Source: Candidatus Alloenteromonas pullistercoris
GTDB lineage: Bacteria > Bacillota_I > Bacilli_A > RFN20 > CAG-826
Reading direction: 5' to 3'
Length of the DNA: 47,657 nucleotides
NCBI GenBank assembly: GCA_017694295.1
Contig: JADINA010000021.1
Location: 1-47,657 of the forward strand
Under the pieces are notes generated by a model. That model searched no databases and was not told the origin of the DNA. It saw nothing but the letters and a program-made list of their open reading frames with translations. Positions 15,008 through 29,106 of this stretch are shown here, piece after piece. How positions within the stretch are numbered: position 1 is the first letter of the stretch; each line of letters opens with the position of its first letter. Position numbers and translations under genes: made by a program.

Positions 15008-16966
15008 ATGGACGAAGAGGAAAAGAAAATAGAAGAGGCCGAACGCGGCTATAATGCCCAATCCATCGAGCTTTTATCCGAACTCGAGGGCGTTAGGAAG
15101 CGCCCTGGCATGTATATCGGGTCGACCAATTCGATGGGCCTGCACCATCTTATTTGGGAAATAGTCGATAACGGCGTCGACGAAGCCGTCAACGGCTATG
15201 GCAACAAGATTTCCGTCACCATAAAGAAGGACGGGTCGGCCGAAATCGAGGACGAGGGCCGCGGCATCCCGACCGAGATGCACGCTTCTGGCGTCCCGGC
15301 GATCCAGCTCATCTACACGACCTTGCATTCCGGCGGCAAGTTCTCCGACAAGAACTATTCGACCTCAGCTGGTCTCCATGGCGTCGGCGCGACCGTCACC
15401 AACGCCCTTTCCGAATGGCTCGACGTCACCGTCTACCGCCTTGGGAAGATATACCACATCCGCTTCGAAGACGGGGGCAAACTCGTCACCCCGCTTGAGG
15501 TCATCGGGACCACGAGGAAACACGGCACGGTCGTCCGTTTCAAGCCCGATAAGCGGATCTTCTCGACCGTCGAGTTCAAATGGGACACGATCTCCAACCA
15601 CCTCCAGGAGGAGGCTTTCCTCCTTAAGAAGGTCCATTTCGCCCTAAAAGACGAAAGGACCGGCCTTTCCCGCGAGTTCTACTACGAAAAGGGGCTAAGC
15701 GAATACGTCCTCAACCTCAACCAGAACAAGGAGCCGCTTGGGCCGATCCTCTATTTCGAGGACGAATCGAGCCCGGTCAAGATCGAATTGGCCATGCAGT
15801 GGTGCAACAAGGACTACAACGAGAACATCTATTCCTACGCCAACTCGGTCCGGACCCATGACGGGGGAACCCACGAGACCGGGCTTCGGCTTGGCATCAC
15901 CAAGGCGGTCAACGACTGGGCCACCCAAAACGGAGTCATTAAGGAGACGCAAAAGCTCGACGGCAACGACATCCGCGAGGGGCTGACGGCCGTCATCGCC
16001 GTCAAGGTGCCCGAGAAGATACTCGAATACGAGGGGCAGACGAAAGGCAAACTCGGCACCCCGTCGGCGCTTTCCGCCGTCAACGACTTCACCTACCAAG
16101 CCTTGGTCCATTACCTTGCCGAGCATAAGGAATTCGCCGTCGACCTCATAAAGAAATGCCAAGCCTCCAAAGAGGCCCGCGAAGCCGCCAGGAAAGCCAA
16201 GGAGGCGGCCCGCACTGGGAAGAAGAGCAAAAAGGACGATACCCCGATATCGGATAAGCTCGCCGCCGCCCAAAGCAAGGACTATAAGGAAAACGAGCTT
16301 TTCATCGTCGAGGGCGATTCGGCCGGCGGCACCGCCAAAAACGGCCGCGACCGCCTCCATCAGGCGATTCTCCCCCTTCGGGGAAAGCCGCTGAACACCG
16401 ATTCCGTCACCATGGAGAGGATGCTGCAAAACGTCGAGTTCTCGACCATCATCGCCACCATCGGGGCCGGGGTCGGGGCCGATTTCGACGTCGAGGACTC
16501 GAGGTACGGCAAAATCATCATCATGACCGACGCCGACACCGACGGGGCCCATATCCAGATTTTGCTCCTTACCTTCTTCTATAACTACATGAAGCCGCTT
16601 ATAACCCATGGGATGGTCTATTTGGCCTGCCCGCCGCTATACCGCGTCAGCAAGAAAAACGACAGCAAAAACTTCCTTTACGCCTGGGACGACGAGCAAC
16701 TTGCCGAGGCCAAGAGGAAAATCGGCCCCGGCTATACCATCTCGCGCTACAAAGGCCTTGGCGAGATGAGCGCTGAGCAATTGGCCTCAACCACCATGAA
16801 CAAGGCGACTCGTCGCCTCCTCCAAGTCCGCATCGACGACCCGTTGGTGGTGGAGAAGCGCATCTCGATTCTCATGGGCAAAGACCCGTCGCAAAGGCGG
16901 ACCTGGATCGAGGAAAACGTCAAGTTCGATGAGAAGGACGCCTTCATCGAGGAGGTTGCCAAATGA
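15008..16966 (+). CDS. parE: DNA topoisomerase IV subunit B
   Basis: ATPase subunit of topoisomerase IV, which unlinks daughter chromosomes. The GHKL ATPase domain shows [19 protein letters not shown] and [13 protein letters not shown]. The transducer domain follows. The TOPRIM domain carries EGDSAGG and DADTDGAHI, and the C-terminus has YKGLGEM. A Lys-rich insert sits at about 398-415. At 652 aa it has ParE rather than long GyrB form, and its partner lacks the GyrA box, so topoisomerase IV is the better call. The stop overlaps parC by 4 bases. No Shine-Dalgarno is visible at the ATG. Confidence 0.95.
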
Positions 16967-19614
16967 GCAGGAAAAAGCAGCCGGAAGCGGCCAAGATAGT
17001 CGAAAACATCGAGCCCGGCACCCTCGATGAGCTCATGGGCGACCGTTTCGACATATACGCCAAAGACGTCATCCAGGACCGGGCCATCCCCGATGCCCGG
17101 GATGGTTTGAAGCCGGTTCAGCGCCGCATCGTCTACGTCATGTGGAAAACCGGCAACACCATCGAGAAACAGACGAAGAAATGCGCCCACACGGTCGGCG
17201 AGGTCATGGGTAAATACCATCCCCACGGCGACTCCTCCATCTATAGCGCCCTCGTCCGCCTCTCCCAGCCCTGGATCATGCGCGTCCCGCTTGTCGACTT
17301 CCAAGGCAACAACGGCTCGATCGACGGCGACCCCCCGGCCGCCTACCGTTACACCGAGGCCCGGCTTTCCGCCATCTCCAACGAGCTCATCCGCGACATA
17401 AACAAAAACGGCGTCGACATGGGGCTTACTTTCGACGACACCGAATTCGAGCCTAACGTCCTCCCAGCCCATTTCCCGAACCTCTTGGTCAATGGGGCGA
17501 GCGGCATCGCCGTCGGCCTCGCCACCGAGATCCCGCCCCATAACCTGAAAGAGGTGATTGACGCGGTCATCTACCGCATCAACCGCCCCTCCTGCCCAAT
17601 CGAATCGCTCATGCGCTTCGTCCAGGGGCCTGACTTCCCAACCGGCGGCATCATCTACAAAACCCAGGGGCTTTACGACATCTACCTAAATGGGCGCGGC
17701 ACTGTCACGATGTGCTCGAGGACCCATTACGAGGTAAGTCCGGACGGCCTTGACCAGATAATCGTCACCGAGATCCCCTATGGCGTCTTCAAAAGCGCCA
17801 TCATCGCCTCCATCGACAAAATAAGGCGCGACAAGGAGATAGACGGCATCGACGAGGTGCGCGACGAGACCGACAAAACCGGCCTTCGGATCGCCATCGA
17901 CATCAAAAAAGGGTTCAAAAAGGAAGCCATTTTGGCCTATTTGCTTTCGAAGACCAAGCTTCGGACCACCTATTCGGCCAACATGATCGCCATCGTAAAC
18001 GGCCGTCCGCAGACGCTTAACCTCCTAAGCTATTGCGACACCTACATCGCCCACCAGAAAGACGTCTACACCAGGCGCATCAACTTCGACCTAGCCAAAA
18101 ACAAGGCGAGGCTAAGCATCGTCGAGGGCCTCATCAAGGCCGCCTCCATCATCGAGGAGGTCATCAAGGTCATCCGCCTCTCGAAGGACAAAGCCGACTC
18201 CAAGGCCAACCTCGAGTCCCGCTTCGGCTTTTTGCCCGATCAAAGCGAAGCCATCGTCATGATGCCCCTTTATAAGCTCTCCCACACCGACATCGAGGTG
18301 CTCATGGCCGAGCGCGACGCGCTTAAAGAAGACATCGCCGAAGCCGAGTCGATACTCTCAAGCGAGGAGAAGCTAAGCTCGATCATCGCCTCCGACCTCC
18401 GTGAAATCGCCAAAACCTACTCCGACAAGCGGCGGACCGAGGTCAAACCGGAGGAGGAGATGAACAGCGCCGCCATCGATAAATCCGATCTAGTCGCCAA
18501 AGACGACGTCATGGTCGCCCTCACCCGCGATGGCTACCTCAAGCGGAGCTCAATCGCCTCCTACAAGGGCTCAGGCGGCCATACCGGCGCCTACCCGGGG
18601 ATGAAAAACGGCGATACCCTCCTATTGGCCAAGCAATGCATCTCGACCGACCACTTGCTCATGTTCACCGACAAGGGGCAATTCATCGACCTGCCCGTCC
18701 ACATGATCAAGCAGACCAAATGGCTCGACGAGGGCATCCACATCAACTTCACCGCCACCCTCGACCCGAAGGAGAAAATCGTCTCCGCCTTCGTCGTAGC
18801 GACCTTTAGGAGCGACCTTTACATCGTCTTGGCCACGAAGCTTGGCTCGATAAAGCGGGTGAGGCTCGATAATTTCGCCTCCCTCCGCCTCGGCAAGCCC
18901 GCCAGGGCGATGAAACTGCTCAGCGGGGATGAGGTGGTCGACGCCACCCTTACAAGCGGCGATTCGACCCTTTGCCTATTCTCCAAAGGCGGCTTGGCCT
19001 GCGCCTATTCCGAAAAGGAGGTCGCGCCCTTCGGGACCTCGGCCGGCGGGATCAAAAGCGCTTCCTTCCATGGGGAAGAGGTGGTCGACGTCGAATCGCT
19101 TAACCCCGGGGAGAGCTGCAAATTCGCCCTGATCACCGATATGGGGGCGACCAGGATTCTAAGCAGCTCCAACATCAACCTCGGCAAGCGGCTTTCCCGC
19201 TCGACCGTCATCTTCAAATCGTTCAAAAGCCAGGTCAACTCGCTTATCGGCGTCATCAAGCTTCAAAAGGAGGCGACCGCGCCCTTCACGGTCAAATGCA
19301 CCCTTTCCAGCGGCGACTACCTCGACATCGAGTTCCCCGACCTTTATTTGACCCCGATGGACAAGATCGCGAAAAGCGAGCTCAAACTCCCCAAAGGGGT
19401 AACCGTCTCCCGGGCCAATACCCTCGACGGCATCCTCATTGATTCCTCCACCCAATCCTTCGATAAGGCGGAGGAGGCGGAGGAGAGCGCCCCAGCGGAA
19501 GAGCCGGCCAAGGAAGGGGAAGGCGAGCCCAACATGGTGACCAACGACGATTCCGGGTTCGACGAGAAGTATGAGCAGATCTCGATATTCTCCGACTTCA
19601 ATTTCGATGACTGA
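16963..19614 (+). CDS. parC: DNA topoisomerase IV subunit A
   Basis: DNA-cutting subunit of topoisomerase IV. The winged-helix region has [14 protein letters not shown] and the catalytic tyrosine in [12 protein letters not shown] coiled-coil tower follows (about 430-490). The C-terminal beta-pinwheel repeats contain [15 protein letters not shown], where a gyrase would carry the QRRGGKG box; its absence identifies ParC. A Glu/Ala-rich linker of about 25 residues (around 825-855) precedes the end. The 883 aa length is normal for a Gram-positive ParC. It is cotranslated with parE. Confidence 0.95.
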
Positions 19615-22920: not shown

Positions 22921-23313
22921 ATGATTGAGAATTCGAAAATGCCTAACCCGGCAATGGAAATGAGCCCTCAGGCAAAGGAAATATGTGATTTCCTCGATGA
23001 GCGGAAAGCGGAGGACATCGCCATCTTCGACGTTTCCGGCATTTCCCCCTTTGCCACCTATTACGTGATCGCGACCGCGCCCAACCATCGGGCGTTGGGG
23101 GCCATTGCGGAATTGCTTGAGGACAAGCTTGAGCAAGAGGGCCTAATCAGGGGCAAAGCTGAGGGAACCTCGGATTCCGGATGGATAATAGTGGAGTCAG
23201 AGGACGTCATCGTCCATCTCTTCACCAGCGTCAATAGAAAAGAATTCGCCTTGGAAGACCTCATTGCCAAAATCGCGGGCGAATCCAAAAGTAGAGCGGA
23301 CGCGGAAAATTAG
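22921..23313 (+). CDS. rsfS: Ribosome silencing factor RsfS
   Basis: Binds uL14 and blocks 50S-30S joining when nutrients are scarce. Core features: ICDFLDERKAEDIAIFDVSG, YYVIATAPNHRAL and the SGWIIVESEDVIVHLFT segment with the family W-x-x-x-D-x-x-D/H pattern. It has 130 aa including about 18 extra N-terminal residues; an internal ATG (residue 14) could be used, but the GGAGG 8 bases before 22921 favours this start. It closes the yqeG cluster, and a strong terminator follows. Confidence 0.92.
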   Translation: MIENSKMPNPAMEMSPQAKEICDFLDERKAEDIAIFDVSGISPFATYYVIATAPNHRALGAIAELLEDKLEQEGLIRGKAEGTSDSGWIIVESEDVIVHLFTSVNRKEFALEDLIAKIAGESKSRADAEN

Positions 23314-23348: not shown

Positions 23349-23375
23349 GGCCCGAAGCCAAAATCGGGCCTTTTT
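23349..23375 (+). terminator. Rho-independent terminator after rsfS
   Basis: GGCCCGA (23349-23355), 8-base loop, TCGGGCC (23364-23370), then TTTTT. It ends the yqeG-rsfS operon, 15 bases before dif. Confidence 0.92.
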
Positions 23376-23389
23376 CCGATTTACATATA

Positions 23390-23417
23390 ACTTCGCATAA
23401 TGTCCATTATGTTAACT
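23390..23417 (+). other. dif: dif site (chromosome dimer resolution site)
   Basis: A 28-bp site with left arm ACTTCGCATAA (23390-23400), 6-base spacer TGTCCA (23401-23406) and right arm TTATGTTAACT (23407-23417). By my alignment it matches the published Firmicutes dif consensus at 25 of 28 positions, and the right arm is the conserved XerD-binding half. It lies in the intergenic gap where gene orientation changes from + to - for the whole window, and a Xer recombinase gene is 3.6 kb away. This is the position and context expected of the replication terminus. The identification rests on sequence only. Confidence 0.88.
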
Positions 23418-23707
23418 TATATAGAATAAAAGCGCATCTTATCTAACCTTATATAATGAGGATTAAATCGGAATTCCCCATATTAGAACCTCGTAAAACG
23501 TGTTTCCCATTTTGGGATTAATTACTAATTTTCTACCAAAGGCCCTTTTACAGCCATTTACCCGTTTCGTTAATCGAAAATACGCTCAAAAGGTGATTTT
23601 AGTTCGGAAACGAACTATATATGATTTTTAGGCAAACAATATCTAAGGGATTGGGCACGCGATATTTCGTCAATGGCCCGCTGATGGATTCGCTTGGTTA
23701 TGTTAAC
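23418..23707. other. AT-rich gene-free stretch beside dif
   Basis: No gene is supported here. It contains a perfect 7-bp hairpin TAGTTCG, GAAA, CGAACTA (23600-23617) without a clean U-tract on either strand, and ends with an exact copy of the dif right arm at 23698-23708. I see no convincing promoter or RNA gene. The ABC permease gene ends at 23708. Confidence 0.6.
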
Positions 23708-23708
23708 T
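23698..23708 (+). repeat. Isolated dif right-arm copy
   Basis: TTATGTTAACT, 11 of 11 identical to the dif right arm and in the same orientation, about 290 bases from dif. No left arm lies at the proper distance. It overlaps the first base of the permease stop codon. Confidence 0.5.
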
Positions 23709-24532
23709 TACGCCCTTGGGCTTTCCTCGTATCCTTTTCTCGCCAAAGCCGATTTCAAGGCAAAGAACGGGATGTCGACTAGCAAGGCGATGGATAAGGC
23801 GATCAAGGCATAGGCGATTATGTTCTCGGTCTCCCCGTTTATCCTGGCAAGGGATATCATCGCCCCGATGCCGTGCCTTAACGAGCTTGAACTGACCAAG
23901 ACCTCGGCCATGATGGCTGTTTTGAAGGATAGGCCAAGGCTTTGGGCGAGGGAAAGGGAAATATACGGCCAGGCATCGGGGATGAGGACGCGAATCGTCC
24001 CTTTCAAAGACGTCCTCCCACAATCGAGGCTAAGCGAGTCGCGGATGCTTTGGTCCTCATTGGCGATCCCGGCCCGGCAGGCGTCGAAAATTATCGGGAA
24101 GGCGACGATAAAGGTTAGGAAAGACGGGACGTAATTTAGCAAAAACCACGTCTTCGGGGCCGTTAATGCCCCCATCATAACGATGACGACCGCCACCGTC
24201 GGGACGGCCTTCATCAATAGGCTTCCCGGGCGGAAAAGCCCGTCTATCAGCTTGAATAGCCCGGCGAGGACGCCGAATACGCCGCCAAGGACAAAGGCGG
24301 AGGCAAAGCCTAAAAGGACCCGGCCGATCGTATAGCCGATGCTCGTCCAGGTGTAGGCCGCCCCATCCCAAAAAAGCAGCTTCAAGGCCCGATAGAGGGC
24401 AAGATGGGGATAAGGGAGGATGTGGTTTCCCTTCGAAATAAGCAAATAGGAGGCCAAATACCAGGCGAGGACAATCAAAAAGAGCCCCACCGCGATTCCC
24501 GTTATGGTCAAGGTGTGGGCTCTTTTTCTCAT
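23708..24532 (-). CDS. ABC transporter permease (NitT/TauT/Ssu-like)
   Basis: A 274-aa inner-membrane permease with about six helices, of the family that imports nitrate, sulfonates, or thiamine precursors. The ATPase-contact EAA loop is seen as DSLSLDCGRTSLKG and then VLIPDAWPYI (about 180-215), somewhat degenerate. It follows the binding lipoprotein gene after 20 bases with no clear Shine-Dalgarno. No ATP-binding subunit is encoded in the window, so one must be supplied from elsewhere or the system may not work. Substrate unknown. It is the last gene before dif. Confidence 0.85.
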   Translation of the reverse strand: MRKRAHTLTITGIAVGLFLIVLAWYLASYLLISKGNHILPYPHLALYRALKLLFWDGAAYTWTSIGYTIGRVLLGFASAFVLGGVFGVLAGLFKLIDGLFRPGSLLMKAVPTVAVVIVMMGALTAPKTWFLLNYVPSFLTFIVAFPIIFDACRAGIANEDQSIRDSLSLDCGRTSLKGTIRVLIPDAWPYISLSLAQSLGLSFKTAIMAEVLVSSSSLRHGIGAMISLARINGETENIIAYALIALSIALLVDIPFFALKSALARKGYEESPRA

Positions 24533-24552
24533 TGGCTTAGTTTAGCAAGCTA

Positions 24553-25626
24553 TTACCGCGAAAGAAAGCTGCTTTCCGGATATTCGGGGCCGCCGACGAT
24601 GTGCTGGAAGGCGTTGGCCACCTCCATCGGGTCGGCGTATTCGCTTTGGATGTTGAATTGGTTGGCCCCGTCTTTTTGTAGCGCTGAGACCAAGGCCGGG
24701 GTGAAGCCGAAGCGGGCGCTGCAATCCGAATCGCTATTGGGATCGAGGGCCTCGTAGGCCGTAAGGGCCTCAACGGCCAATTCCGGGTTCTCCACGGCGT
24801 TTGCCATCCTTTCCTCGGTTTCGGCGATGAAGGCGTCCATGACGTCTTTGTTTTCGCCATAGGCGGTTTTGTTCACGAACAAGCCGGCCGCCGGGATGGT
24901 GGAGTCTTCGCCGTGGGCTTCCTTCCACTCATCCTGGAGGTTATAGATTATGTTAAGTTCGATTCCCTTGGCGGACAGCTGGGCCTTGGCGTTTGTCAAA
25001 GCCGGCTGGGCCACGAGGTAGAAATCGTAGGCCTCCGGGTTGCTTATGAGGTTCTGCACGACCGTCAGGACGCCGGATTCGTATTTGATCAAACCCGATT
25101 CGGAAAGCCCCTCGATTCCCCAATGGTCTTCGGCGAGGTTCATCAAAGCCTGGTTGGCGACGCCGTTTTGGACGAACGAATCGATGGTTTTGTCTATGCC
25201 GAGGTCTTCCGGGGAATCGTATTTGGTTGAGACTAGGTAATAGGTGCCGCCGGAGATCCAGCGGGCGAGGGCGTAGTCCCTTTTGTTGTTGGTGACGTTG
25301 GTGAGCCCGTTAATCCCGTCGAAGACGATGAAGTCGTATTGCCCGCTTGAAAAGGCCGCCGGGATGAAATCGGAAGGGCTCGAGGTGCTAAACCACCTAT
25401 TGTCCTCGGCCCCGAGGTCATAGAAGGCCAAAGTCGGGATGCCGGTCGGGGTGATGAGGGTCACCTCGGAGGTGTCGATTTCCCCTTTGTTTTCGGATGA
25501 TGAGCCGGTAGCATCGGGGCTTGAATCCGGCAAAGAGCTTTCCGAGGATGAGCTTCCCGCGCCCCCTTGGCAGCCAACGAGGGCGAGCGAGGTGGAGGCG
25601 AGGGCCATTATGAGCGTTTTATTCAT
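24553..25626 (-). CDS. ABC transporter substrate-binding lipoprotein
   Basis: A 357-aa exported protein. The N-terminus MNKTLIMALASTSLALVGC is a lipoprotein signal with lipobox LVGC (Cys19), followed by a Ser/Gly/Asp-rich linker to about residue 55. The mature part (TLITPTGIPTLAFYDLG, then IVFDGINGLTNV and LARWISGGTYYLVS) resembles NMT1/SsuA-type type II binding proteins, consistent with the permease downstream. The frame is open from 25674, but the signal peptide and AAAGGAG upstream place the start at 25626. It has its own promoter between deoB and this gene. Substrate not deducible. Confidence 0.85.
   Translation of the reverse strand: MNKTLIMALASTSLALVGCQGGAGSSSSESSLPDSSPDATGSSSENKGEIDTSEVTLITPTGIPTLAFYDLGAEDNRWFSTSSPSDFIPAAFSSGQYDFIVFDGINGLTNVTNNKRDYALARWISGGTYYLVSTKYDSPEDLGIDKTIDSFVQNGVANQALMNLAEDHWGIEGLSESGLIKYESGVLTVVQNLISNPEAYDFYLVAQPALTNAKAQLSAKGIELNIIYNLQDEWKEAHGEDSTIPAAGLFVNKTAYGENKDVMDAFIAETEERMANAVENPELAVEALTAYEALDPNSDSDCSARFGFTPALVSALQKDGANQFNIQSEYADPMEVANAFQHIVGGPEYPESSFLSR
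24948..24958 (+). repeat. dif right-arm-like sequence inside the lipoprotein gene
   Basis: TTATGTTAAGT, 10 of 11 identical to the dif right arm, same orientation as dif, within coding sequence (encodes part of ELNIIYN on the - strand). Confidence 0.35.
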
Positions 25627-25683
25627 TTCTAGGTGACTCCTTTTAAGGCAAATTGGAAACGGATAGGCTTCCAAACAGCCGTT

Positions 25684-25725: not shown

Positions 25726-26925
25726 TTAGGCAAGCAATTCGAGGATCGGCTCGCCGACCATCCCCTCCTCCTTATGGAGGCCGAAGTTCTTGAGGATGGT
25801 GGCCCCGATGGCCCCAAAGCAATGGATCTCGCCTAGCGTCCTCCCCCCTTCGAAGGCTGGGGAGTAGCAAAGCAAGGGCACTTTCTCCCTGGTGTGGTCG
25901 GTGCCGTGGTGGATGGGGTCGTTGCCGTGGTCGGCAGTCACCATGAGCAAATCGCCTTTGCCCATTTTCCTGATGAATTCGCCTAGACGCCTATCGAAGG
26001 CTTCCAGGCAATGGGCGTAGCCCTCGGGGTTGCGCCGGTGGCCGTATTCGGAATCGAACTCGACGAGGTTGACGAAGCAAAGCCCCTCGTAGTCCTCCTG
26101 CGTGAGCTGGCGGATGGCCTCGTCCATCCCCTCCTCGTTGGAGGCGGTATGGATGCTCCTAGTTATGCCGACGGCGTTGAAGATGTCGCTTATCTTCCCG
26201 ATCCCGGATACCGTCAAGCCGTTTTTCTTCAAGACGTCGAGCGCGGTCGTCCCGGTCGGGGAAACGGTGTAATCCTTTCTGTTGGCCCCGTCGCGGACAA
26301 AGCCGTCTTTCTCATTCCCGGTGTAGGGGCGGGCGATGACCCGGCCCACCAGCCATTCGGGCCGCATGCAAATGCGCCTGGCGATCTCACAACAGCGATG
26401 GAGTTCCTCGACCCCGGTCACCTCCTCATGGGCGGCAAGCTGCAGCACTGAGTCGGCCGAGGTGTAAGCAATGAGCGAATTCTCCGCCATCTGAGTAGGC
26501 CCAAGCTCTTTGAGTATCTCGGTCCCCGAGGCGGCTTTGTTGCCGATGATCTTATGTCCGGTTTCCTTTTGAAGCAACTCAATCAATTCCTTGGGGAAGC
26601 CGGTGTCGGTGAAGGTCTTAAACGGCTTAACCGTCTCAACCCCCATCATCTCCCAATGGCCGGTCATGGTGTCTTTGCCCTTGCTTAGCTCCGTAAGCCG
26701 GGCGGAGTAGGCTTTCGGGTGGAGCTCGACTTTGGCTACCCCGGGGATCTCATCGAGTTCGCCTAACCCCATCCGCTCCATGTTGGGGACGGATAGCCCG
26801 CCGATTGAGGCGGCGGCGTGGGCGAAGGTGTTGGCCCCGACGTCGCCGAAGCTCTCGGCGTCGTCCATCTCGCCGATCCCGGCGGAGTCGGCGACTATGA
26901 CGAATATCCTTTTGAACTTTGGCAT
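25726..26925 (-). CDS. deoB: Phosphopentomutase DeoB
   Basis: Interconverts ribose-1-phosphate and ribose-5-phosphate (and deoxy forms), linking nucleoside breakdown to the pentose-phosphate pathway. Alkaline-phosphatase-like fold with two Mn ions: IVADSAGIGEMDDA (first ligand Asp), NKAASGTEIL, YTSADSVLQLAAHEE (nucleophile threonine region nearby), VTADHGNDP and GTDHTREKVPLL. Frame open from 26997, but GGAGG 7 bases before the ATG 26925 and the family start MPKFKRIFVIV set 399 aa, a normal length. No other nucleoside catabolism gene is in the window. Confidence 0.95.
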   Translation of the reverse strand: MPKFKRIFVIVADSAGIGEMDDAESFGDVGANTFAHAAASIGGLSVPNMERMGLGELDEIPGVAKVELHPKAYSARLTELSKGKDTMTGHWEMMGVETVKPFKTFTDTGFPKELIELLQKETGHKIIGNKAASGTEILKELGPTQMAENSLIAYTSADSVLQLAAHEEVTGVEELHRCCEIARRICMRPEWLVGRVIARPYTGNEKDGFVRDGANRKDYTVSPTGTTALDVLKKNGLTVSGIGKISDIFNAVGITRSIHTASNEEGMDEAIRQLTQEDYEGLCFVNLVEFDSEYGHRRNPEGYAHCLEAFDRRLGEFIRKMGKGDLLMVTADHGNDPIHHGTDHTREKVPLLCYSPAFEGGRTLGEIHCFGAIGATILKNFGLHKEEGMVGEPILELLA

Positions 26926-26955
26926 CGCTTGCCTCCTGTTTCTCTTATCGACCTT

Positions 26956-26984
26956 ATTATAGCCATTTGATGGCCCGGCCTTAA
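26956..26984 (-). promoter_or_regulatory. deoB promoter
   Basis: On the - strand: TATAAT (26961-26956), with a modest -35 TTAAGG (26984-26979) at 17 bases. It lies between xerD and deoB, giving deoB a leader of about 25 bases. Confidence 0.65.
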
Positions 26985-26993
26985 CTAATACGC

Positions 26994-27881
26994 TCACTTC
27001 CCCTCGAAGGCCTTGCGGTAGGCGCTTATGGCGCCCTCGGGGTTGACGTGGGTGTAGATCTCGGTGGTCTCGAGGTGGGCATGGCCCAGCAATGCGCTGA
27101 CCGAGCGCAAACTCGCGCCGTGGCTTAGAAGATGGGTGGCGAAGCTATGGCGGAGGGTATGAGGCGAGACGTTTTTCCTTATCCCGGCGATCTCGGCGTA
27201 TTTCTTGACTTGGAGGAAGAAATAGTTCCGGCTGAGCGGGTCGCCGAATTTGTTGAGAAAGCAATATGGGGATTTCTCGGCGCCTTTGACCTTTGGGCGG
27301 TACAAGTTAACATAATCTTTTAGCGCCGCCAAAGCCTCCTCGCCGATCGGGACGGTCCGTTCCTTATCGCCTTTGCCATGCCTTATCCTAACCAAGCGAC
27401 GGTCGAATCCGATGTCGGAAAGGCGCAGCTCGATGAGCTCGCCAACCCGGCAGCCGGTCATATACATGGTAAGAAGCATCGCGTAGTCCCGAGCCCCGAA
27501 TTCGCTTTCGGGGTCGATGGCGGCGAATAGGCGGCCGATCTCCTCCTCGGTCAATACCTCCGGGAGCCGCCTTTCCCGCTTGGGGAGGGCGATTTTCCCG
27601 CCCGAATAGGCCATTAGCCCTTTCTTCGACAAATACAGGAAAAAGCCGCGGAGGAAGGAAAGCCGCCTGGCGATCGAGCTGCGACTCCTTTCCTTCTCGC
27701 CTTCCTCGATGGCGAAGGTCCCGATCATGTCCTCAGTTAGGTCATCGGTGCTCTTGACGAAGGGGAAATCCGTCCGGAAAATCCCGAAATCGTCGTAATA
27801 ATCCTTGACCGTCGTCTTCGAAAGCCCCCTTTCAACCAGCAGGTGGCGCGCGTAATCGTCCATCGCGTCTTCAATGTCCAT
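26994..27881 (-). CDS. xerD: Tyrosine recombinase XerD/XerC
   Basis: Site-specific recombinase of the Xer family, which resolves chromosome dimers at dif during division. N-terminal core-binding domain (about 5-90), then the catalytic domain with the full active site: Arg145 (GCRVGEL), Lys170 (HGKGDKER), His241 and Arg244 (HTLRHSFATHLL), His267 (LLGHAHLETT) and nucleophile Tyr276 (EIYTHV). 295 aa, the standard Xer length with no integrase additions. AAAGGAGG lies 8 bases before the ATG, and the start overlaps the end of dinB by 11 bases. A dif site lies 3.6 kb downstream. XerC versus XerD cannot be told from this copy alone. Confidence 0.93.
   Translation of the reverse strand: MDIEDAMDDYARHLLVERGLSKTTVKDYYDDFGIFRTDFPFVKSTDDLTEDMIGTFAIEEGEKERSRSSIARRLSFLRGFFLYLSKKGLMAYSGGKIALPKRERRLPEVLTEEEIGRLFAAIDPESEFGARDYAMLLTMYMTGCRVGELIELRLSDIGFDRRLVRIRHGKGDKERTVPIGEEALAALKDYVNLYRPKVKGAEKSPYCFLNKFGDPLSRNYFFLQVKKYAEIAGIRKNVSPHTLRHSFATHLLSHGASLRSVSALLGHAHLETTEIYTHVNPEGAISAYRKAFEGK
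27305..27315 (-). repeat. dif right-arm copy inside xerD
   Basis: On the - strand TTATGTTAACT, 11 of 11 identical to the dif right arm, opposite orientation to dif, encoding Tyr-Val-Asn-Leu of xerD with codons (GTT, TTG) less GC-rich than the surroundings. Confidence 0.45.
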
Positions 27882-29070
27882 CGCCTTTGCCTCCTTTCCT
27901 TTCGACCTCTGAGCCGCGTTTCAATAACGGCTTGCTCAGCTTTCTGTTTATCTCGTTGATGATCTTCCTCGTCTTGTCGGCGTTTTCGTATTCCTCATAG
28001 TTCCAAATCGTCATCTGGACGGTGCGCTTAAGCGGGTTGACGAGTTTCGATAGGCTTATGCCGACAAGCCTCACGTCCATCGCCTCGAAGCTTTTCCTAT
28101 ATAGCGACTCGGCTTCGGCGTAGATAGTGGAGGCGTCGCTTAGCGGCTCCTCAAATGTCTTGGAGCGGCTATGCATCCTGAATTGGGTGTCTTTGACAGA
28201 CAAAGTCAAGGTGAGGCCGGACTTTTTGGCCTCCTTGGCCCGGCGGGCGACCTCCTCGGAGAGCTTTCTGACCTCGGGCGAGACCTCATCGAACCCGGAG
28301 CAATCCCGGGAGAGGGTCGTCGAGTTGCCAATCGATTTGGCTTCCTCCGGCTCAACGACGATCTCGTCGTCGCCTTTCCCCCTCACCCAATCCAAACAGG
28401 TGTAGGCGAATTTGCCAAGCAGCCTATAGATCTCCTCGTCGCCTTCTTTTAGCCTAGATGCCAAATCGCCGATGGTCTTGCAGCCTTTTTCGCGCAGCTC
28501 CGGCGCGGTCTTTTTCCCAATCCCCCAAAAAGACTCGATCGGGAGGGGATAGACGATCTTCTCGATGTCGCGTTGCCTTATTATGGTAAGCCCCAGCGGC
28601 TTATGGAGGTCGCTGCCCATTTTGGCCAACCATTTGGTTTTCGCCAGCCCAATCGAGCAGGAAAGTCCGGTTTTCGCCTTTAAATCAAGCTGCATGGCCC
28701 GCAGATAGGCCACCGGGTCTTTGGATTTAAGAAGCGGCTTCGTCATATCGACGTAAGCCTCGTCGATCGAGGCCTTCTCGATAAGCCGGCTATAAGAGGA
28801 AAGATAGGCGAAAAAGGAAAGGGAAAGAACCTCATAATAATGGAAATCGGGTTGGATGACCACCGCTTCCGGGCAAAGCCGGAGCGCTTGGAACATCGGC
28901 TGCCCCGAATGGCAGCCTTTCCGCCTGGCGGTGTAGGAAGCCGTCGAGACGATGCCCGAGCGGCCTTCATGGCCTATGAGGATAGGCTTTCCGCGCAGGG
29001 CGGGGTTGCGGATTTCCTCGGCGGTCGCGTAGAAGGCGTTGAGGTCGATGTGCATGATTAGCCGGCCCAT
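27871..29070 (-). CDS. dinB: DNA polymerase IV (Y family)
   Basis: Error-prone translesion polymerase. Palm motifs are IMHIDLNAFYATAEE (catalytic Asp, steric-gate Phe-Tyr) and KASIDEAYVDM with the SIDE motif. The finger/thumb region includes GLAKTKWLAKMGSDLHKP and WGIGKKT (helix-hairpin-helix). The little-finger domain ends near 350. 399 aa. The longest frame starts at 29091 (TTG), but a TATAAT box occupies 29082-29077, so the ATG at 29070 is the only sensible start and the mRNA is probably leaderless. xerD overlaps its end by 11 bases, so the two are likely coexpressed. Confidence 0.92.
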   Translation of the reverse strand: MGRLIMHIDLNAFYATAEEIRNPALRGKPILIGHEGRSGIVSTASYTARRKGCHSGQPMFQALRLCPEAVVIQPDFHYYEVLSLSFFAYLSSYSRLIEKASIDEAYVDMTKPLLKSKDPVAYLRAMQLDLKAKTGLSCSIGLAKTKWLAKMGSDLHKPLGLTIIRQRDIEKIVYPLPIESFWGIGKKTAPELREKGCKTIGDLASRLKEGDEEIYRLLGKFAYTCLDWVRGKGDDEIVVEPEEAKSIGNSTTLSRDCSGFDEVSPEVRKLSEEVARRAKEAKKSGLTLTLSVKDTQFRMHSRSKTFEEPLSDASTIYAEAESLYRKSFEAMDVRLVGISLSKLVNPLKRTVQMTIWNYEEYENADKTRKIINEINRKLSKPLLKRGSEVERKGGKGDGH

Positions 29071-29076
29071 GAAGCC

Positions 29077-29104
29077 ATTATAGCACGTCAAAAGATTATG
29101 TTAA
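29077..29104 (-). promoter_or_regulatory. dinB promoter, leaderless
   Basis: On the - strand: TTAACA (29104-29099) and TATAAT (29082-29077), 16 bases apart. Only 6 bases (GGCTTC) separate the -10 from the ATG, so transcription should start at the A of ATG. The -35 lies inside a dif-arm-like sequence (29096-29106). Confidence 0.8.
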
Positions 29105-29106
29105 GT
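29096..29106 (+). repeat. dif right-arm-like sequence between dxs and dinB
   Basis: TTATGTTAAGT, 10 of 11 identical to the dif right arm, same orientation as dif. It coincides with the dinB -35 on the - strand, so its resemblance may be due to the promoter. Confidence 0.35.

Follow-up and report, generated by a model that had tools for sequence, protein, structure and literature searches.

The closest described counterparts of the locus reported here are the chromosomal dif sites of Bacillus subtilis and Escherichia coli. The B. subtilis site has a 28-bp layout, lies at the replication terminus, and is served by two recombinases, XerC/CodV and XerD/RipX. Streptococci and lactococci use a different arrangement in which, according to PMC2731167, a single recombinase called XerS acts on its own 31-bp site, difSL, and the recombination site is linked to the recombinase gene. 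XerD of B. subtilis also has a function separate from dimer resolution, wherein at the terminus the protein bound to its own sites (XDS) unloads the SMC condensin (Karaboja et al. 2021, as described in the citing papers PMC10945525 and PMC12322038).

We examined a stretch of 47,657 nucleotides from Candidatus Alloenteromonas pullistercoris, hereafter called the window, together with related genomes from the same uncultured family and from its order. Two conclusions drawn from sequence comparisons are the most secure: that positions 23390-23417 correspond to dif, and that a site upstream of dinB is conserved. The features relevant to dif and its neighborhood are as follows.

16963..19614, + strand: parC (topoisomerase IV subunit A), 3.8 kb left of dif
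22921..23313, + strand: rsfS, the conserved left neighbor of dif
23349..23370, + strand: hairpin followed by TTTTT, the probable rsfS operon terminator (the stem scan lists the - strand only; the + strand T run was read by eye)
23390..23417, + strand: dif, 28 bp, ACTTCGCATAATGTCCATTATGTTAACT, assigned from sequence, single copy, and family conservation; XerC arm (left) ACTTCGCATAA, central region TGTCCA, XerD arm (right) TTATGTTAACT
23407..23417, + strand: XerD arm of dif (right arm), assigned from E. coli and B. subtilis dif (PMC3025954 and established knowledge)
25726..26997, - strand: deoB (phosphopentomutase), last gene of a probable dinB-xerD-deoB operon
26994..27881, - strand: xerD, tyrosine recombinase, whose best NCBIfam match is TIGR02225 XerD, below the cut-off
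27871..29091, - strand: dinB (DNA polymerase IV), first gene of the probable dinB-xerD-deoB operon

The 28-mer has the dif-type layout of two 11-bp arms around a 6-bp center. When up to three mismatches are allowed, it matches once in the window and never in 100 dinucleotide shuffles. The genome as a whole (1.42 Mb in 40 contigs, 86.67% complete) likewise carries one copy of the 28-mer and no second full-length copy, which is the outcome anticipated by the original prediction of a dif site at these positions. Compared with the experimentally confirmed sites printed in PMC3025954, the window site is identical at 21 of 28 positions to B. subtilis dif (ACTTCCTAGAATATATATTATGTAAACT) and at 22 of 28 to E. 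coli dif (GGTGCGCATAATGTATATTATGTTAAAT). The right arm matches both at 10 of 11 positions, and the left arm matches both at 8 of 11. The CATAATG core is shared with the E. coli site, whereas the outer XerC-arm bases and the center differ. Thus, the 25 of 28 matches to a Firmicutes consensus given in the original prediction are too many; that consensus was unspecified and the alignment is not reproducible. In contrast, the proposed central inverted repeat (CATAATG-TC-CATTATG) is real, with 10 of 14 position pairs complementary. The intergenic placement beyond the rsfS operon terminator is also correct, with rsfS ending at 23313 and the hairpin and its T run lying just before dif.

The same genome encodes candidates for the proteins expected to act at such a site. 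XerC is the best match for the product of another gene (locus L158), though below the equivalog cut-off, and the gene is found in the context trmFO-xerC-rpsB (trmFO and rpsB as read from the sequence). Both xerC and xerD thereby have the gene neighbors expected of them. A protein with an FtsK_SpoIIIE domain (E 9e-52) is encoded as well. We infer that XerCD bind and recombine at dif: XerC on the left arm and XerD on the right arm would resolve chromosome dimers at the replication terminus together with a translocase of the FtsK/SpoIIIE type. A third tyrosine recombinase, besides XerC and XerD, is present at G000:C10:18656-19111 (locus L159) in an open frame of 399 aa, and possibly belongs to a mobile element.

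Among 196 genomes of the family, 84 have exactly one dif match each at three or fewer mismatches and the others have none, while the reversed pattern matches nowhere. A looser search with the arms places dif at the same position in nearly all of the remaining genomes examined. Among these matches, the arms are conserved and the central bases are variable. For another 40 genomes of the order we also collected the surroundings of xerD, and 38 of these regions contain a dif-like site (five or fewer arm mismatches) in the same neighborhood. No dif-like site was found within the xerD-region stretch examined for G210 (family f4) and G219 (family f5).

Gene context was compared in 20-kb dif regions from 58 of the family genomes plus that of the window; regions are shorter at contig ends, and one genome is represented by two pieces. 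The order-wide arrangement is nadD-rsfS, then dif, then deoB-xerD-dinB in the opposite direction. Wherever the flanks are covered among the regions listed, dif has a single orientation and neighborhood across the genera of family f1 and in f3 and f5. In these listed regions, parC, yqeH, nadD, and usually rsfS point toward dif on the XerC side, and deoB-xerD-dinB do so on the XerD side; the genes in between vary. Two genomes, G052 and G072 (loci L200 and L201), are exceptions in that neither dinB nor deoB was found close to dif and dxs directly precedes xerD; there, no half-site occurs upstream of xerD. Many genera carry a taurine/nitrate ABC-type permease and substrate-binding protein pair between dif and deoB (positions 23708-25674 in the window). 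This pair occurs on either strand and is absent in other genera.

The position of the site also agrees with that of a replication terminus. In the window, the lowest cumulative GC skew falls at 21.3 kb and the lowest TA skew at 24.5 kb, and the main genes switch strand at dif, being mostly on the + strand to its left and almost all on the - strand to its right. Because the genome is divided among 40 contigs, global position was evaluated using the relative G104, whose sequence is one contig of 1,061,998 bases (99% complete). In this genome, dnaA (203,776-205,092) and dif (719,220) are 174.5 degrees apart. The arm running from dnaA to dif shows positive GC skew where sampled, the other arm negative skew, and the sign flips within ~2.5 kb of dif. 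Similarly, in the single-contig genome G241 (family f5, 81% complete) the distance from dnaA to the dif-like site is about half of the contig. The site had been predicted to lie at the skew switch point and opposite dnaA, and both the window skew minimum and the angle in G104, as a proxy for the genome itself, agree with this expectation.

It might be argued that the 28-mer is instead a Xer site of a mobile element or plasmid (pdif or a phage att site), given that phages and plasmids use dif-like sites and that a third tyrosine recombinase is encoded elsewhere in the genome. However, there is one copy, its synteny is fixed across genera and families, its neighbors are housekeeping genes, and it lies at the terminus. 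These observations contradict the mobile-element reading, which we consider extremely improbable. The uniqueness, conservation, and location of the site, together with the encoded machinery, bear out the original assignment, and positions 23390-23417 are almost certainly the chromosomal dif site. Taken by itself, this dif is an unremarkable, well-supported example of a familiar kind.

The surroundings of this dif differ from those of its counterparts. In the window, dif is tied to the xerD locus, at a distance of 3.6 kb, and extra sites resembling the XerD arm adjoin it, which distinguishes it from B. subtilis dif. In B. subtilis, as here, deoB adjoins xerD; we know of no comparable half-site array in E. 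coli. The linkage of a recombination site to a recombinase gene is reminiscent of difSL-XerS, but the window has two recombinases, a 28-bp site, and separate half-sites, unlike that system. Four lone copies of the XerD arm are present besides dif, all on one side of it.

23698..23708, + strand: lone XerD-arm half-site TTATGTTAACT, overlapping the permease gene stop codon
24948..24958, + strand: lone XerD-arm half-site TTATGTTAAGT, within the substrate-binding protein gene (tauA)
27305..27315, - strand: lone XerD-arm half-site TTATGTTAACT, within the xerD coding sequence
29096..29106, + strand: XerD-arm half-site TTATGTTAAGT, covering the -35 box of the dinB-xerD-deoB promoter
29077..29104, - strand: promoter TTAACA-16-TATAAT, with 11/12 consensus matches and TG before the -10 box

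Searching the window for TTATGTTAACT with at most one mismatch yields 5 matches compared to 0.11 expected. Exact matches to TTATGTTAAST number 5 in the entire genome, all within 5.7 kb at and to the right of dif, with none elsewhere. The match extends to a 13-mer, TTATGTTAACTTA, which is found at the XerD arm of dif and again at 23698-23710. The repetition of this arm had been overlooked in the original prediction. Control searches with the XerC arm nearly always give one match per region, which is dif itself, and therefore the satellites are of the XerD-arm type only.

Several of these copies are retained in relatives. The half-site at 24948 is in the same place in G081, G065, G133, G157, and apparently G033, and the copy at 27305 inside xerD is in the same place in G081, G065, and G133. 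The copy within the window's xerD specifies Val with GTT, a codon used for 10% of Val codons. More broadly, after exclusion of the dif and dinB sites, the 59 dif regions contain 26 further copies. Shuffled sequences give 2.6 +/- 1.7 (at most 6 in any of 100 rounds), and the reversed pattern gives 8. The in-gene copies are concentrated in a few clades and are not all independent. Specifically, extra copies are located in the permease gene, the substrate-binding protein gene, and xerD in clade g1; in yqeH-nadD, nadD, dxs, and the substrate-binding gene in clade g13; and in nadD, the permease and substrate-binding genes, and xerD (at a different place and orientation) in clade g33. Clade g31 also has extra copies. 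Where copies are coding, the 11-mer is unchanged while neighboring third positions vary.

Sites of the XerD-arm type thus cluster around the terminus. In 14 genomes scanned whole, copies ending in AACC are almost all within 7 kb of dif. Co-evolution of the last base between half-site and dif appears only partial, as the half-site ends in C but dif in T in G012, G033, and G100. These comparisons draw mostly on draft metagenome assemblies from relatives that are not independent, and on a motif picked because it is a dif arm. Taken together, the sequence patterns make it highly probable that the lone half-sites are genuine, maintained by selection, and bound by XerD.

The first idea considered for the satellites was SMC condensin unloading by XerD at the terminus, as in B. 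subtilis. Sites carrying only the XerD arm and clustered at the terminus are what this mechanism uses according to PMC10945525 and PMC12322038, and XDS are likewise separate from dimer resolution. ParB was also found in 8 of 8 family genomes, exceeding the cut-off in 7. However, SMC (TIGR02168) exceeds its cut-off in none of 8 family genomes; the weak matches are short stretches that probably derive from RecF/RecN-like and coiled-coil proteins. Among 147 genomes of the order, of which 120 have completeness of 90% or more and contamination of 5% or less, none has a ScpA (PF02616) match over the cut-off, whereas B. subtilis and eight other controls are positive. Thus, SMC-ScpAB seems to be missing from the order, though ParB is present, and the B. 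subtilis explanation is not simply transferable.

The placement of the copies also argues against SMC unloading, since one half-site coincides with a promoter, in contrast to a scatter of sites across the terminus. With respect to XDS as portrayed in the citing papers, the window therefore differs on two counts: the order is apparently without SMC-ScpAB, and the most conserved copy is on the promoter of the xerD operon. We dropped this idea on the basis of the SMC and ScpA searches and regard it as improbable. We favor instead XerD autoregulation combined with an array of XerD sites confined to the terminus.

The copy at 29096-29106 lies between dxs and dinB, and a promoter scan places the -35 box inside it. 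The -10 element TATAAT is only 6 nt from an ATG that corresponds to codon 8 of the called dinB open reading frame, and therefore the mRNA of the dinB operon is probably leaderless. The pattern of TATAAT, about 6 nt, and ATG (29082-29068 on the - strand of the window) recurs across the family.

A conserved motif, [AGT][GC]TTAACATAA, is located just upstream of dinB in 49 of the 73 genomes of this family (f1) that have dinB, leaving about a third of f1 genomes without the site. The reversed and complemented motifs each give 0 matches and the motif on the opposite strand gives 1. Outside f1, the site was found in 1 of 19 genomes. Within the family, the promoter of the xerD operon is the most frequent place for a copied XerD arm.

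One alternative is that the motif upstream of dinB is nothing more than a -35 element (TTAACA), or the operator of another regulator, and resembles the XerD arm by chance. The window does offer an 11/12 promoter match here, TTAACA is an acceptable -35 box, and promoter constraint may help to keep the motif in some genomes. However, conservation spans RGTTAACATAAT, well beyond the hexamer, and the spacing between the motif and the start codon ranges from ~6 to 39 nt among genomes. A -35 box would need a fixed distance, and therefore the conserved motif looks like an operator. Moreover, in genomes such as G129 and G181 the sites ending in AACY are confined to dif and dinB, and more copies lie within genes near dif. 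For these reasons, this alternative is unlikely, albeit somewhat less so than SMC unloading.

We propose a regulatory scheme for the dinB-upstream site. XerD alone probably binds isolated arm copies within a few kilobases of dif. When bound at the dinB-xerD-deoB promoter, it would block or compete with RNA polymerase, and the level of the recombinase would thereby be held down. There are known cases of tyrosine recombinases binding beside their own promoters. A literature search on autoregulation by XerD specifically returned nothing relevant.

The half-site over the promoter of its own operon suggests that XerD controls its own genes, and we judge the chances of autorepression by XerD specifically to be about even. 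We have good confidence in the explanation of the locus as a whole, with dif, XerD-bound half-sites, and, less surely, operon autorepression. More tentatively, XerD may act alone beyond dimer resolution in an order that appears to be without SMC-ScpAB, repressing dinB-xerD-deoB and, in several clades, occupying a short array of further half-sites within genes next to dif.

The repeated XerD arm is not ordinary, in that it suggests a housekeeping recombinase doubling as a transcription regulator of its own operon. It also suggests a clustering of XerD-only sites at the terminus although SMC unloading, the known reason for such sites, seems absent. The half-sites provide short, exact sequences for binding and reporter work. 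If the proposed scheme is true, then Xer dosage, an error-prone polymerase gene, and terminus organization would depend on one shared DNA-binding site.
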